Below, one piece after another: positions 2,926 to 26,646 of a stretch of 27,766 nt of DNA (the first letter of the stretch is position 1; each line of letters begins with the position of its first letter). Under the pieces are notes generated by a model. That model was not told the origin of the DNA. It was given only the letters and a program-made list of their open reading frames with translations, and did not search any database. This DNA comes from a virus, in IMG/VR virus record IMGVR_UViG_3300028548_001146, positions 1 to 27,766 of that record. The stretch is one strand, 5' to 3'. Made by a program: the position numbers and the translations under genes.

Positions 2926-3549
2926 TTAAAATTTATTATAATCTTTATTAGCTAATTGTTTTCTGCCTGACTTGTCTTTAATTGTATTTTTCTCCCAAGT
3001 CCTAACACAAGCTCTCCAATCCTTCATCTTTCCTTTACCTATCATCCAACCTTTACTCGCATAGAAGTCTACAAAAGTATCAGCACAGACCTTGTTTTTT
3101 CTCTCATTGCAGTATTCATGTACTTCTTCTACTGTAGGTTCCTTAAATCGCTTTATAATAGGCTTCTTTATCTCGTTAGGAAGTCCTGCTACATCAACAG
3201 GGCTAATACCTTCAATGTTATATACATCATACTTGTCTAATGCTTTTATAACTGACTGATGAACTCTTGAATTTTCATTTAGATTTACATATTGAAAGTC
3301 AATAAAGCTTGGAATAAACCATTTGTTTCCTCCATCAAATATCTTTATCTGACTAGCCATTACAGTAACAGCTTCAGCTTCAGTTATCTTACTTCCTATT
3401 CTTATTGATGCTACCTCAAAATCAGTTTCCCATATTCCTGCATGGGTACAATCATCTAATATGTATAGCCAAAACAGTTTATACTTAGGAACTAGTCCTC
3501 TTATGAAACCTTTCTTCCATTTGTCTGAGTCTGTCATTCTTTTTGCCAT
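2926..3549 (-). CDS. Replisome organiser-like DNA replication initiation protein
   Basis: 207 residues. The N-terminal half (about 1-100) resembles the winged-helix domain of phage replication initiators, with KLFWLYILDDCTHAGIWETD, an AxxRIGSKIT helix and WFIPSFIDFQY. The C-terminal part has the small helical region typical of such proteins: EVHEYCNERK, DTFVDFYASKGW, and MKDWRACVRTWEKN. In related phages this protein binds the origin and recruits the helicase loader, which agrees with the DnaC-like gene downstream. The start is preceded by a leader with TAACTATTAACTA and AAAACACA. A GC-rich hairpin separates it from the SSB-like gene. Confidence 0.75.
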   Translation of the reverse strand: MAKRMTDSDKWKKGFIRGLVPKYKLFWLYILDDCTHAGIWETDFEVASIRIGSKITEAEAVTVMASQIKIFDGGNKWFIPSFIDFQYVNLNENSRVHQSVIKALDKYDVYNIEGISPVDVAGLPNEIKKPIIKRFKEPTVEEVHEYCNERKNKVCADTFVDFYASKGWMIGKGKMKDWRACVRTWEKNTIKDKSGRKQLANKDYNKF

Positions 3550-3614: not shown

Positions 3615-3866
3615 TTAAAAAGGTAAGTCATCTTCTTGTTTAACTTTATCTGAAGTTGTTTCCTTTGGTGGTTCGTAAGTATTCTCATAAGCATAATGTG
3701 TTGCTCCTTTTTCTGAAGGCTCTCTCCTTTCTGCTATTGTAATGTTTACCCAACCTCTTTTAGCGATTTTCTGCAACTCATCCATCTTAAAGTTTGCATT
3801 AAATAAATCTCCATACTGCGTAGTTACTTTCTTAATACTACTTACTACATAATTTTTTTCTGCCAT
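3615..3866 (-). CDS. SSB-like single-stranded DNA-binding protein
   Basis: 83 residues. The end, QEDDLPF, matches the acidic C-terminal tip by which bacterial SSB proteins bind their partners. The rest is too short for a full OB fold of host SSB length but has alternating strands (YVVSSIKKVTTQYGDLFNANF and WVNITIAERR) and a polar linker before the tip. The likely role is coating single-stranded phage DNA and recruiting replication or recombination enzymes. The sequence directly before the ATG, ataaaaagtaaaaaaatg, is repeated exactly before an internal ATG in the protease gene. The SSB tip is clear, while the fold itself is inferred. Confidence 0.65.
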   Translation of the reverse strand: MAEKNYVVSSIKKVTTQYGDLFNANFKMDELQKIAKRGWVNITIAERREPSEKGATHYAYENTYEPPKETTSDKVKQEDDLPF

Positions 3867-3877
3867 TTTTTTACTTT

Positions 3878-4312
3878 TTATTTATTAATTAATTTACTCT
3901 TATACTGCTCTTTCTTTTCCAACAAATCATCAAGCTTTTTATACAACTCATCAATCTTTCTCTCTATGTTTACTATCTCGTGTATATAGTAATTATCATC
4001 CTCTATAAGCATAGCTTCAATTTCTTCAAAGTTTAACCTATAAGATTTTAATATTTTTATAAAGTTGTTGTGTTGATTTACATTATGAAGTATTGTAGCA
4101 TGATTCTTGTTAAGTATCTTTGCTATTAGAGTATATGTAATTCCAAATGTATTTCTTAATATTCCACAATACATTCTCCTAGCATCTACTACAAGTCTTA
4201 CTCTACTCTTAGACTCTATACTAATCCAACTTACATCATACCTTCTGCATATCTCAGATTTGATTTTATCATCTCTTTCTTTAGTAAGTTCAAATGAATA
4301 ATTACGCTTCAT
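3878..4312 (-). CDS. Stand-alone DnaA domain-IV-like DNA-binding protein with coiled-coil tail
   Basis: 144 residues. Residues 18-90 match the DNA-binding domain IV of DnaA: a basic helix RLVVDARRMYCGILRN, the turn GITYTLIAKILNKN, and the signature KNHATILHNV (compare DnaA RDHTTVLHA). The AAA+ part of DnaA is absent. Residues 110-140 form a charged coiled coil (ERKIDELYKKLDDLLEKKEQ). It could bind DnaA-box-like sites in phage or host DNA, either to mark an origin or to compete with host DnaA. The start overlaps the end of the HTH gene by 11 bases. Domain assignment is good and the role is inferred. Confidence 0.75.
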   Translation of the reverse strand: MKRNYSFELTKERDDKIKSEICRRYDVSWISIESKSRVRLVVDARRMYCGILRNTFGITYTLIAKILNKNHATILHNVNQHNNFIKILKSYRLNFEEIEAMLIEDDNYYIHEIVNIERKIDELYKKLDDLLEKKEQYKSKLINK

Positions 4313-4616
4313 CTTTTCTCTCTTTAATCATTTGATCTACACCTTTATAGCCTTCCTCTCCTTCTACCACAATAACCTCTCCTTTTAAATCAACTTCTAT
4401 TATGTCAATAATATCTTTTACATCTACATTTAAAAATTGTGCAAGTCTTTGCATTTGGTAGTACCTTAAGTGATATGGGTTATCTAAATATTTTTCAATG
4501 GTTGAGCCTTTAATATTTAATATTCTTCCAAATCTTTGTTTTGATATACCTCTTATTCTGAGGATTGCTTCAAGTTCGTTTCTTGAAGTTCTTACTTTAT
4601 CGTAATCATTATTCAT
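4302..4616 (-). CDS. HTH (XRE-like) DNA-binding protein
   Basis: With the ATG at 4616 the protein has 104 residues. That start lies one base after the TAA of the upstream gene; an ATG at 4646 would give 114 residues but force a 29-base overlap. The segment ELEAILRIRGISKQRFGRIL...STIEKYLDNP...QRLAQFLNVDVKDII follows the five-helix Cro/CI pattern. The tail is acidic and then basic. It is likely a regulator of the replication region or a small initiator accessory. No repressor-style partner gene is seen on the opposite strand. Confidence 0.7.
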   Translation of the reverse strand: MNNDYDKVRTSRNELEAILRIRGISKQRFGRILNIKGSTIEKYLDNPYHLRYYQMQRLAQFLNVDVKDIIDIIEVDLKGEVIVVEGEEGYKGVDQMIKERKDEA

Positions 4617-4617
4617 T

Positions 4618-4881
4618 TTAATATTGTTTTTCGTTAAACATTCCATTTTTTCTCATTGCTTCATACTGATGTTTTGGGTCGGAGTGAACTTCATTTTCTT
4701 TTATATACTTAATAATTTTATCTGCTTCTAAGTCTGTCATATCTATTAAAGAATTAAGTATCTCGTTCTGTTCTGATGTAGAAATAGATGTTCGGTGTAC
4801 GAGGTTCTCAATATATCCTATCTTCCACATCTCTGCTTCCAATGGTTTTCCATCAAGAACCTCATCCATCCAATCACTCAT
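4618..4881 (-). CDS. Hypothetical protein, 87 residues
   Basis: A small acidic helical protein beginning MSDWMDEVLDGKPLEAEMWK and ending in EAMRKNGMFNEKQY, with no membrane segment and no known motif. Its ATG overlaps the stop of the annealing-protein-like gene (TAATG), and it is followed after one base by the HTH gene. The close coupling suggests it works with the recombination protein made just before it, perhaps as an accessory factor. That is inference only. Confidence 0.6.
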   Translation of the reverse strand: MSDWMDEVLDGKPLEAEMWKIGYIENLVHRTSISTSEQNEILNSLIDMTDLEADKIIKYIKENEVHSDPKHQYEAMRKNGMFNEKQY

Positions 4882-5435
4882 TAGTTATCCATTTCATCTT
4901 GACCCTTCACTCCTTGTGCATACAGTCCACAAATTTTTAGAACAGCTCTACTCATACCTCTTTTTTCTGCCATAGCAACAGGAAATTTCTTACCACCTCC
5001 AATTAAGTTGTCATCACTTGCTTCTCCAAAAGTCATTACATTTCTAACATCATGCTCTCCTGTTCCTGTTCTCATACTAGCAATAACCTTTACAACTACC
5101 CAAACTGTTATTTTTTTGGTTTCAGGGTCAATCTCTCTTATCATTTTTATAGGCTCGTATGCTACTTGAATGTTTTGTTTAGCAACAATCTTATCAATTC
5201 CTTCTCTTTTGATAGTCGCAAAACCTCTAGGGTCTTTATAAACATCATCCTTAATTAAGCCATTCTCTAGGAATAATCTTTTTAATGTTTCTTGTTTGGT
5301 TTCTTTTACCATAGTTGCTTCTTCTACATTTACTTTTTTCACTTTATTATTGATTTGGTTAATACTCTCTTTTGGTTCTAAGTTATATTGCATTTCTTCT
5401 TGCATTTGGATGTACTGTTCTTTCATCTTTCCCAT
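4881..5435 (-). CDS. Putative single-strand annealing (recombination) protein
   Basis: 184 residues. The first 55 are polar and probably flexible. The remainder has strands TVWVVVKVIASM and VRNVMTFGEAS, then GGKKFPVAMAEKRGMSRAVLK, and an acidic end. The pattern GEAS...P.AMAEKR..SRA.LK..G resembles Rad52-superfamily-like annealing proteins of phages, which pair complementary single strands. The neighbouring SSB-like and nuclease genes fit a recombination module. It is the first gene after the 228-base repeat gap and has a promoter candidate at 5472-5503. The family assignment is from pattern memory and needs a profile search. Confidence 0.45.
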   Translation of the reverse strand: MGKMKEQYIQMQEEMQYNLEPKESINQINNKVKKVNVEEATMVKETKQETLKRLFLENGLIKDDVYKDPRGFATIKREGIDKIVAKQNIQVAYEPIKMIREIDPETKKITVWVVVKVIASMRTGTGEHDVRNVMTFGEASDDNLIGGGKKFPVAMAEKRGMSRAVLKICGLYAQGVKGQDEMDN

Positions 5436-5471
5436 TTTAAATTGTGTTTTAGTTAATAGTTAATTTCTGTG

Positions 5472-5503
5472 CAAATAAACAATTAATTTATTAACCTACC
5501 AAA
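5472..5503 (-). promoter_or_regulatory. Candidate Bacteroidetes-type promoter for the replication operon
   Basis: The minus strand reads TTTG, a 20-base spacer, then TTTATTTG, one mismatch from the Bacteroidetes -7 consensus TAnnTTTG, with spacing inside the accepted 17-23 range. The predicted start near 5466 would leave a leader of about 30 bases before the ATG at 5435. It is the only good candidate in the gap, but AT-rich DNA gives such matches by chance. Confidence 0.4.
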
Positions 5504-5552
5504 CTATTTACAATGTTTCTTTAAAATAATATTAGAAAAGTTGATATTTAAC

Positions 5553-5621
5553 CTAGTCTTTATCTTTAACCTTAGCTTTAACTTTAGCTTTAGCTTTATC
5601 TTTAATGGTATAGAACACCAT
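5553..5621 (-). CDS. Possible 22-residue lysine-alternating micro-ORF
   Basis: From the ATG at 5621 the frame reads MVFYTI and then KDKAKAKVKAKVKDKD before TAG. The eight hexamer repeats are therefore lysine codons alternating with Asp, Ala or Val codons. The only change in the lysine codons is AAA to AAG, which is silent, and the last Asp codon changes GAT to GAC, also silent. This hints at selection on the peptide. The ATG lies in one arm of a 7-bp hairpin. The alternative is that the hexamers are a noncoding array and the frame is accidental. Very short, so confidence is low. Confidence 0.35.
   Translation of the reverse strand: MVFYTIKDKAKAKVKAKVKDKD
5558..5605 (-). repeat. Eight tandem hexamers (AAAGNT-type) upstream of the replication operon
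   Basis: On the plus strand the units are CTTTAT, CTTTAA, CCTTAG, CTTTAA, CTTTAG, CTTTAG, CTTTAT and CTTTAA, in exact 6-base phase. They lie between the metallophosphoesterase gene and the replication operon. They may be protein-binding iterons, slippage products or codons of the micro-ORF covering them. Confidence 0.85.
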
Positions 5622-5623
5622 TA
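5603..5623 (-). other. Hairpin enclosing the micro-ORF start codon
   Basis: TAATGGT and ACCATTA form a perfect 7-bp stem with a 7-base loop. The ATG of the possible micro-ORF is in the first arm of the transcript, so folding could hide the start. The hairpin directly abuts the 11-mer repeats on one side and overlaps the hexamers on the other. Confidence 0.5.
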
Positions 5624-5656
5624 GTTAAGGGTTTATAAAGGGCTTGTAAAGGGTTT
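5624..5656 (-). repeat. Three tandem 11-mers (AAACCCTTTAC type)
   Basis: On the minus strand the units are AAACCCTTTAC, AAGCCCTTTAT and AAACCCTTAAC, with no bases between them. A spacing of 11 bases is about one DNA helical turn, so a protein could bind the same face at each repeat. They lie just after the metallophosphoesterase stop, next to a CTTTTAAAAG palindrome at 5661-5670. This makes the gap a candidate operator or replication origin. Confidence 0.75.
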
Positions 5657-5663
5657 AATTCTT

Positions 5664-6746
5664 TTAAAAGTAGTGAACTAGTCTTGCTATCTGACCTGAG
5701 CTTTTTGAATGAATAAATCCTTCAACTGCAGGAGATGAAATGAATCCTTTACCTGCGTGCCAACTATCAGCAGCAGAAGGACTACGCATATACTCAACAG
5801 TACAACCTATAAAGTCTTTTCCATCTAACCACTTATACTTAACTTTATGATGTATGTGATGTAGATACCAATATCTATGACTTGTTTCTGACCATTCTTT
5901 TGGCTTCTCATTAGCCATTAACATAGGAAGTAAATCCATCTTAGCACCATCTCCATGTTCTAAACCTATAAGATTAGAGCCATACTTGTAATACTTACGA
6001 TTAGCAACTGATATGTCAAAAGAAACATCATCAGCTTTTCTAAACCAAGATTGTAATGCGTGAGCTAAATGGAATCCACTTTGGAAGTCGTGATTAGACA
6101 TTGAATGAACAACATCTACAGGTGCAACTTGTCTAAGAATCTCAACACATTTAACATAAAGCTCTAATGCTATCTCATAATGTTGCCACCATTTCTTATC
6201 TGTGTCCTGATATGTACCTCTAGTAGTTGTAGAAAGAACGCCATCTGTATGTAGTATGTCATTACCAATACAGAATAATACCCTATCAACATTAAATCCT
6301 TGAGATTTGCTTATAAGACCTTCAATGCCTTCTAATACTCTAGCACAGGCTATCTCTGTATTATAATCTTCTCCTGTTTCTGAAGCAACTGCTAGTTTTC
6401 CAATATGAATATCAGCAGGATTTATGATCAATAAATTATCCCCCTTTACTCTTTTGATTTTAGGGTAAGTAGGTGCGTGATTATCTATAAGAGCTTTAAC
6501 ATCTTCTAATAAATCTGTTTGTTCAATAGCAGATTGCTCTTTAGTTACTATAGAAAAGCGTAAATCCCCTCCCATATTCTGCCAATGTTTAACGCTTACT
6601 ACATTTTTTTTATCTATACCTCTGTCCTGTAAGTGTAGGTCTAAAGCAGTATTACCATTAATATTTTGTAAATTTTCTCCTCTTGATTCATTGATTAATT
6701 CAACCTCATCAGATGATAATCTTAGTCTTTTTCCTAATTTTCTCAT
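5664..6746 (-). CDS. Calcineurin-like metallophosphoesterase
   Basis: With the ATG at 6746 it has 360 residues; a TTG two codons earlier is also possible. Motifs of the fold appear in order: ADIHIGK (Asp112, His114), IGNDILHTDG (Asn162, Asp163), SNHD (218-220), GLEHGDG (His264) and LHHIHH (296-300). These bind the two metals of SbcD/Mre11-like nucleases and related phosphoesterases. The N-terminal 60 residues look like a small helical DNA-binding region. Related phage proteins are commonly labelled DNA repair exonucleases, though activity is rarely shown. It stands alone between the late terminator and the repeat gap. Confidence 0.85.
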   Translation of the reverse strand: MRKLGKRLRLSSDEVELINESRGENLQNINGNTALDLHLQDRGIDKKNVVSVKHWQNMGGDLRFSIVTKEQSAIEQTDLLEDVKALIDNHAPTYPKIKRVKGDNLLIINPADIHIGKLAVASETGEDYNTEIACARVLEGIEGLISKSQGFNVDRVLFCIGNDILHTDGVLSTTTRGTYQDTDKKWWQHYEIALELYVKCVEILRQVAPVDVVHSMSNHDFQSGFHLAHALQSWFRKADDVSFDISVANRKYYKYGSNLIGLEHGDGAKMDLLPMLMANEKPKEWSETSHRYWYLHHIHHKVKYKWLDGKDFIGCTVEYMRSPSAADSWHAGKGFISSPAVEGFIHSKSSGQIARLVHYF

Positions 6747-6749
6747 ATT

Positions 6750-6780
6750 CAAATTTAATAAAAATTACTATAGATACAAA
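6750..6780 (-). promoter_or_regulatory. Candidate promoter overlapping the late terminator
   Basis: The minus strand reads TTTG, 19 bases, then TAAATTTG, a full match to TAnnTTTG with ideal spacing. The -33 TTTG is the end of the terminator T-run. Only three bases separate the -7 box from the ATG at 6746, so transcription would start at or inside the first codon. A real promoter here would mean a leaderless message. Confidence 0.45.
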
Positions 6781-6813
6781 AAAAAAGTGAGAAGTTATTA
6801 ACCCCTCACTCTT
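6778..6813 (-). terminator. Strong intrinsic terminator at the end of the late region
   Basis: The minus-strand RNA folds as a 14-bp stem (three G-U pairs) with loop AAU, followed by a U-run. The T-run in DNA is nine bases, four of them in the stem. The G-U pairs mean that the fold is good only on this strand. It lies about 57 bases after the holin-like stop. Confidence 0.85.
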
Positions 6814-6870
6814 AACTACTAACTATTACCACAATGAAAACACTCATAAAGGTAATGCAAATGTAATGAT

Positions 6871-7062
6871 TTATTTCTTAATATCTGCAATTCCTTGACC
6901 TAATATTAAAACAAGCAATGCTTGAAATAATTGAGTAGCAGTTTCAGTATCTACTCCTAAGTATGTTACTAAAGCAGGTACTACTACAGAACTAATCATA
7001 TACCAAAACTTTTTGGATTTAATCATTTTACCGATAAGGTATTTTTCTAAAAACTTTTTCAT
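6871..7062 (-). CDS. Holin-like small membrane protein
   Basis: 63 residues. A basic start (MKKFLEKYLIGKMIKSKKFW) is followed by two hydrophobic stretches, MISSVVVPALVTYLG and ATQLFQALLVLILGQGIA, with DTET between them, and a short basic end. This gives one or two membrane helices. The position directly after the M15 peptidase and before the late terminator is typical of a lysis module, so a holin role is likely: opening the inner membrane so the peptidase can reach the wall. Holins share little sequence, so this rests on topology and place. Confidence 0.6.
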   Translation of the reverse strand: MKKFLEKYLIGKMIKSKKFWYMISSVVVPALVTYLGVDTETATQLFQALLVLILGQGIADIKK

Positions 7063-7076
7063 CTTTTTTTTTTAAA

Positions 7077-7496
7077 TTAATAATAATGCCAAGTAACATC
7101 TTGACTTTTCGTTTTATCTGTGTCCAAATGTAGGAAATTCTTTCCTATTCCAATGCGATTTATGCCAACTTTTATAGCTGCTGACATTATAAGGAATCTA
7201 GTTTTACTGTCATCTGCTTTAATATCCACAGCACAACAAGGTATATTCATGTGAGATGAACTTTTAACCCCACCAACCATACTATTATGAAAGGGAGTTC
7301 TATATCCGGAATTTACTTTAAATGGAATACCTGCTATTTCTCTAGCTTCATCTAATTTTCTAACAAAATTAATATCCATATTATCCCCTGAACCAATATC
7401 ATCAGGACTATCAAACTCAGATAAATTAAAATATTTTACTGTTCTAGGTGGAGATTGATTTCTTTGAATATCGTAATAGCTTCTGTCTTTTGCCAT
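7077..7496 (-). CDS. M15 peptidase-type endolysin
   Basis: 139 residues, a typical single-domain length. The M15 motifs are clear: VNSGYRTPFHN (61-71), GGVKSSSH with metal His82, CCAVDI with metal Asp91, and NRIGIGKNFLHLD with metal His123. The end, VTWHYY, is also typical. The enzyme would cut peptide cross-links of the cell wall (D-Ala-D-Ala or L-Ala-D-Glu type) at the end of infection. There is no signal peptide, so it would need a holin to leave the cytoplasm. It shares one base with the coiled-coil membrane gene before it. Confidence 0.9.
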   Translation of the reverse strand: MAKDRSYYDIQRNQSPPRTVKYFNLSEFDSPDDIGSGDNMDINFVRKLDEAREIAGIPFKVNSGYRTPFHNSMVGGVKSSSHMNIPCCAVDIKADDSKTRFLIMSAAIKVGINRIGIGKNFLHLDTDKTKSQDVTWHYY

Positions 7497-7729
7497 TATG
7501 ATGTGAATAGCTTTATTAAAGCACCTAAAGTTATACTATATATAACCCACATAGCCTTTACCAAAACCTTTCTCATTGCTGTATTTCTATTAACCCTAGC
7601 TGTAACCCCTGTATCAGGATTTAACAGTTTCTCAGTTAGCATATCTAGCTTTGAATCTATACTGTTCATTTTACTATTAATAGAGCCTATATCTTTTTTC
7701 ATTGACATTATTTCTTCCTTTGTGGTCAT
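7496..7729 (-). CDS. Coiled-coil membrane protein of the lysis module
   Basis: 77 residues. Residues 1-38 are a heptad-like helix (MKKDIGSINSKMNSIDSKLD), then come NPDTGVTARVNRNTAMRKV and one hydrophobic C-terminal helix (VIYSITLGALIKLF). This tail-anchored shape is common beside phage endolysins and may be a second holin, a holin regulator or a spanin-like factor. It overlaps the neighbouring genes by one base at each end (TAATG), which implies coupled translation with the minor virion gene before it and the peptidase after it. Confidence 0.6.
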   Translation of the reverse strand: MTTKEEIMSMKKDIGSINSKMNSIDSKLDMLTEKLLNPDTGVTARVNRNTAMRKVLVKAMWVIYSITLGALIKLFTS

Positions 7730-26333: not shown

Positions 26334-26334
26334 G

Positions 26335-26646
26335 TTACATTATTTTGTTTGGATTGTGAATTTTCTCTTGAACCTTAGACTCGTATGTGTTTTTTGCTGT
26401 TACCCAACTAAGGTATGTCATAACATTATAAAGATTAGTATCTTTTACACTATCTATACCATTTTTACCATTTATATTGAATACAGCTTTCTCGGCTAAC
26501 ATATAAAGACTGTTAAGCCAACCAAATGGAGCTATATATGCTTTATATAATCCTGTTGTATTCACAGTTCCTGTACTTGTAGTTTTTTCTCCGAATATGT
26601 ACGGAAAAGTGTCGTTAATTTTTCGCTTTGATGAGTCAAAAAAAAA
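26335..26646 (-). CDS. Frame -1 extension of the tail-assembly chaperone (made by frameshift)
   Basis: The -1 frame is open from a TAA about 50 bases before the T-run to the TAA at 26335. It has no ATG in its first 50 codons, only a TTG. After the slip it adds 100 residues (DSSKRKINDTFPYIFGEK...AYIAPFGWLNSLYMLAEKAVF) to the first 211-212 of the upstream frame, giving a protein of about 312 residues. The pair resembles lambda gpG and gpGT in logic, though not in sequence. The next gene starts one base after the stop. Independent translation from the TTG is the alternative. Confidence 0.6.
   Translation of the reverse strand, partial: FFFDSSKRKINDTFPYIFGEKTTSTGTVNTTGLYKAYIAPFGWLNSLYMLAEKAVFNINGKNGIDSVKDTNLYNVMTYLSWVTAKNTYESKVQEKIHNPNKIM

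Follow-up and report, generated by a model that had tools for sequence, protein, structure and literature searches.

Operator sets bound by regulators of the Cro/C1 type (XRE) are known in phages, OL/OR of phage lambda being an example. The phage SPP1 has two replication origins about 13 kb apart, each of which consists of direct repeats and an AT-rich unwinding element and is bound by gp38 (PMC6316719). Sigma-A promoters of flavobacteria are characterized by the -7 consensus TAnnTTTG (PMC9723704). Here we describe, in a viral DNA of 27,766 nucleotides (positions 1 to 27,766 of the IMG/VR record IMGVR_UViG_3300028548_001146, the whole of which is called the window), a conserved, paired and orientation-independent element that stands before the early promoter and, in most relatives examined, before the late promoter as well. 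Like OL/OR, it combines palindromic sites with regularly spaced neighbours in two distant clusters, with a Cro/C1-type helix-turn-helix (HTH) protein encoded nearby and promoters adjacent; unlike OL/OR, its clusters are about 10 kb apart and lie upstream of the promoters instead of overlapping them, its boxes are a mixture of direct and inverted ones with an attached hexamer array, and its candidate sites are known from sequence. On balance, the element is probably a paired operator, or upstream cis-acting control element, at the early and late promoters, and the likely ligand would be this HTH protein of 114 aa, termed HTH114.

The first copy (site 1) extends over 5547-5657 within the gap 5436-5663, and the minus strand is the coding strand for the genes neighbouring it. 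Read along this strand, the 362-aa exonuclease gene (phrog_704; 5664-6752, minus strand) ends just ahead of the element with its stop at 5664, and is followed by the boxes, the palindrome, the hexamers, the motif ACTAGGTTAAA, AT-rich DNA, a promoter and, from 5435, the 184-aa gene (4881-5435, minus strand), the first of the early operon in the window. The three boxes, ACCCTT (5649-5654), GCCCTT (5638-5643) and ACCCTT (5627-5632), with AAGGGT on the other strand, are set at an exact spacing of 11 bp within 5627-5657 (minus strand). The palindrome TAATGGTGT-TCT-ATACCATTA (5603-5623, no strand being assigned) has the consensus AGGGTAT-N3-ATACYCT among relatives, and forms seven perfect outer pairs followed by a G.T and a T-A pair, nine pairs in total. 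About eight tandem TAAAGN hexamers (approximately 5558-5605, minus strand; 7.8 copies according to TRF), the number of which varies among relatives, lead to the conserved end motif ACTAGGTTAAA (5547-5557, minus strand), a related AGGTTAA end being found at site 2. The product of the 184-aa gene matches no family, and contains an annealing-protein-like AMAEKRGMSRAVLK stretch.

The three tandem 11-mers, the 7-bp hairpin and the eight tandem hexamers were correctly recognized in the original prediction, as was their location just ahead of the replication genes, the array lying between the exonuclease gene and the early/replication operon. The gap, said there to be the longest of the window, measures 228 bases, a length which is equalled at 26334-26561 unless a TTG-started ORF of 107 aa, which covers part of that second gap, is real. 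The hexamer periodicity is strong, the lag-6 signal (35/42 matches) being equalled in 0/1000 shuffles of the gap and 0/60 shuffles of the whole window. Taken by itself, the lag-11 signal is weak (reached by 6/1000 gap shuffles and 6/60 whole-window shuffles), and we accept the 11-bp periodicity as real because the phasing of the boxes is conserved in relatives, not on the shuffle statistics.

Relatives were gathered from IMG/VR by searches with the exonuclease, the 184-aa protein, the HTH protein and the replication protein, together with an exact scan for TAAAGATAAANACTAGGTTAAA. The scan matched 52 places, 47 of which are true element loci, and all 47 lie directly after the exonuclease stop where the contig extends that far; the matches in L128, L131, L139, L154 and L162 were discarded as chance occurrences in coding DNA of other phages. 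When the gap was compared in related phages, as had been proposed earlier, the boxes were found to keep their 11-bp phasing in 63 distinct relatives: boxes of the ACCCTT type occur at offset -11 from the palindrome in 51/63, at -22 in 48/63 and at -33 in 10/63, while the palindrome itself is found in all 63 distinct site-1 gaps, being degenerate in a few. A search of the isolate collection gave no DNA match for the 4-kb stretch around the element. The gaps of exonuclease relatives that have no array (L011-L081) hold a different conserved hairpin, ACTAGACAAGC...CCTAG, and, adjoining the promoter, TTGTnnATAA repeats spaced about 12 bp apart; when the contigs of these phages were compared with themselves, a second copy of their gap element was not evident. 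Several related phages without the array (L025, L040, L046, L065, L071 and L078) encode a 25-aa hydrophobic micro-protein, e.g. MEESQSTNIFLMYMLIILVILLLNL, which keeps the same character among them and starts on the exonuclease stop (TAATG).

Downstream of the element, the promoter form TTTS-N18-22-TWNNTTTG is present in 63/63 distinct gaps (shuffled mean 0.4). In the window it is a relaxed match of the Bacteroidetes type (5472-5503, minus strand), with the -33 box TTTG at 5500-5503 and the -7 box TTTATTTG at 5472-5479, placed to serve the early operon. The early promoters of 51/63 relatives fit the strict form TTTG-N18-20-TANNTTTG exactly and in this resemble the flavobacterial sigma-A promoters (PMC9723704), from which the window and the late promoters differ by their relaxed -7 box TTTATTTG; the late promoter at site 2 reads TTTCGTAGG ... 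TTTATTTG. Palindromic sites are thus found near promoters, some 60-110 bp ahead of the -33 box, and the palindrome centre is 103-138 bp from the -7 box at site 1 and 84-111 bp at site 2; at both, the distance varies and the helical phase is not kept. At 84-138 bp from the -7 box, however, the palindrome neither overlaps nor abuts the promoter to be controlled, which is far for a classical operator and counts against our explanation; therefore, our claim is that the element works like an operator, of an upstream type, and not that it is a member of that class. Elsewhere in the window, directly ahead of the exonuclease start, there is a terminator-like hairpin (6813-6783) and, after it, a match to the promoter form TTTG-N19-TAAATTTG (6780-6750); on this ground the exonuclease may be transcribed as a separate unit, the leader of which is very short.

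Two same-strand copies of the element, 8-11.5 kb apart, are present in the near-complete relatives G026 and G028-G032 and in the further genomes G002, G016, G037 and G038. The second copy (site 2) immediately precedes the opening gene of the late (terminase/structural) operon, a few genes ahead of the large terminase (phrog_38, E 4e-96). In G016, the proteins of which are essentially identical to those of the window wherever the two overlap, it is found at G016:16695-16754, about 2.8 kb past the right end of the window, and its alignment with site 1 of the window scores 43, the shuffled maximum being 34. G033 and G027 have kept the late promoter and lost the boxes there, and therefore site 2 is dispensable. 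In the divergent genome G036, to which L265 belongs, an exact 18-mer, AACACTTAAACAACCCTT, stands at site 1 and its reverse complement at site 2; this 18-mer is missing from the usual form of the element, so that both sites have changed together, and its being common to both points to one trans-acting factor.

Three proteins encoded nearby had been put forward as binders, i.e. the HTH protein, a DnaA domain-IV-like protein and the replisome organiser; the first is now the best supported, the replication protein comes second, and the DnaA-like protein has become unlikely. HTH114 (4302-4646, minus strand; HTH_26, Pfam PF13443) is the most likely binder, as a candidate singled out by sequence comparison. 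Its AF2 model has a pLDDT of 85-93 across residues 21-80, and Foldseek returned weak matches, many of them to HTH regulators and none with E < 0.001; no match to it was found in the isolate collection searched, nor did a scan of bacterial genomes by peptide pattern find relatives. Wherever an array carrier offers enough sequence, it also has the genes for HTH114, the 87-aa and 83-aa proteins and replication, and HTH114 was not detected in those exonuclease relatives that lack the array. The distance between palindromes correlates with that between HTH cores (r 0.55; partial r 0.49 given the N-terminus of the replication protein), with that of the replication protein (r 0.41; partial 0.30) and with that of the neighbouring exonuclease (0.61, the HTH core retaining 0.33 after controlling for the exonuclease), correlations that are confounded by gene linkage and do not prove binding by HTH114. 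In the lineage L261-L265, the boxes have changed to AGAGTT forms and the HTH helices are altered while the replication N-terminus is still about 90% identical to that of L182; between L265 and L182, the replication N-termini are 91% identical, the HTH proteins are 67% identical and the boxes are different. Changes in the boxes thus seem to go with those of the HTH protein more than with those of the replication protein.

The 207-aa putative replication protein (2926-3549, minus strand), the second candidate, has an N-terminus that is not confidently folded in its AF2 model. In most carriers, the DnaA domain-IV-like protein shares 30-67% identity with that of the window, with just 30-35% in some, and it was rejected as a binder because it is absent from the array-bearing clade L117/L134/L141/L144. 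In L157, L134, L141 and L144, a short unrelated gene (MTEE...) takes its place between the HTH and 83-aa genes. The 83-aa protein (3615-3866 in the window) ends in an acidic, SSB-like EDDLPF tail and matches no family.

We consider it rather unlikely that the same upstream control element is bound by something else, which could be a regulator of the host or one of the other early proteins of the phage, e.g. the conserved 87-aa protein. The evidence at the sites would be identical in that case, since it names no binder, and the 87-aa and 83-aa genes co-occur with the array equally well as HTH114. However, apart from the dispensable DnaA-C-like protein, HTH114 is the sole tested conserved early protein with a recognized operator-binding domain, and the fact that boxes and HTH helices change together within particular lineages is more easily reconciled with a binder from the phage than with one from the host.

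In the favoured explanation, the element upstream of the early-operon promoter acts in cis as DNA, as does its second copy upstream of the late-operon promoter in the near-complete relatives and G016. A sequence-specific phage protein, most likely HTH114 made from the early operon, would bind the AGGGTAT boxes, the palindrome being occupied by a dimer and additional protomers sitting on the neighbouring boxes, which through their 11-bp phasing lie on one face of the helix; the earlier suggestion that an 11-base period suits protein binding agrees with this. One regulator would thereby coordinate the early and late transcription units, be it by repression or by activation. As the distance between palindrome and promoter is variable and unphased, occlusion or a fixed activator contact seems less likely than bridging or looping between the sites or spreading along the hexamers, either of which would fit the variable spacing better. 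That a single phage protein bridges or connects the two promoters, early and late, across about 10 kb through the phased boxes and the hexamers, with the sites evolving in concert, is a tentative and rather doubtful extension, in which the length of the hexamer array would be free to change. Among the roles originally proposed, i.e. origin, operator or micro-gene, that of an operator is best supported, by the 11-bp-phased boxes, that of an origin is less likely, and that of a micro-gene fails.

The question of twin origins was taken seriously because two such origins are known from SPP1, the gene set of which is similar. On this reading, which is distinctly unlikely, the direct repeats of both sites would be bound by the 207-aa replication protein, which would melt the adjoining AT-rich DNA. 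Both SPP1 (PMC6316719) and the present phage encode an exonuclease, a replication protein and a helicase loader, and both have two similar direct-repeat elements beside AT-rich DNA at a distance of about 10 kb; moreover, the elements here, 8-11.5 kb apart, are orientation-independent and have no helical phasing to the promoter, the replication genes follow site 1, and the replication N-terminus co-occurs with the array. Unlike the SPP1 origins, however, the element here has a palindrome and a promoter just downstream, and this is so at both sites; box changes track the HTH protein above the replication N-terminus; G041 has this N-terminus and no array in the part read; and the phage has a separate locus that is a better candidate. 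This locus, which follows a 66-aa gene where the early operon ends, is a cluster of 3-4 iterons of 17-18 bp with the core TGAAACTGC, usually beside a T-rich tract, and in G016 it forms the largest non-coding gap seen (G016:20022-20744, minus strand), about 0.4 kb past the left end of the window. It is conserved in 14/15 contigs covering that region, with degenerate iterons in G027, two iterons in G035, and G031 and G037 being the same there. Site 1 also has repeats beside AT-rich DNA, yet the iteron locus is the clearer case and likely the replication origin, site 1 being less likely. The GC-skew check that had been suggested for an origin gave no switch at either site in seven near-complete genomes, which is not decisive. 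As had been observed before, site 1 holds no clear DnaA box (TTATCCACA is absent from the gap sequence read), and none was found in the iteron gaps, so that a DnaA-dependent bacterial origin is not supported at either.

In L197, L201, L202 and L225, the element has been inverted as a whole while the exonuclease, the promoter and the early genes are unflipped, which speaks for a DNA element working in either direction. It is very improbable, and by these inverted copies already largely refuted, that the palindrome acts as an RNA structure in the exonuclease transcript (a terminator, attenuator or stability hairpin): the stem is preserved by compensatory changes (T-A to G-C) and G.T pairs, but its fold energy does not surpass that of shuffles on either strand (z 0.05 and 0.48), it has no U-tract and no Rfam match, and the sense transcript of the four inverted relatives has A.C in place of the G.T pair. 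An intrinsic terminator at site 1 was rejected for the missing U-tract, and a scan of 4800-7600 reports one only at 6813-6783. A micro-gene for the 22-aa lysine-rich peptide MVFYTIKDKAKAKVKAKVKDKD (5553-5621, minus strand; judged no gene) deserves next to no credence, for although its ATG-started frame is open in the window, L006 and L007, and a 48-aa frame overlaps site 2 in G016, the ATG is AAG in L005, the frame is lost in L003, L008 and L010, changes fall mostly at second codon positions and the element is inverted at four loci. The inversions, together with the lost start and frame, leave neither a micro-gene nor a sense-RNA hairpin.

Judging from the promoter type and the nearest isolates, the hosts of these phages are probably marine Bacteroidetes; the searches yielded no host isolate for the group. 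The analysis also indicates a separate candidate replication origin for them. With the element described here, two control sites have been defined and a candidate regulator has been named for a large group of uncultured phages, and the early-late switch of these phages therefore becomes testable.
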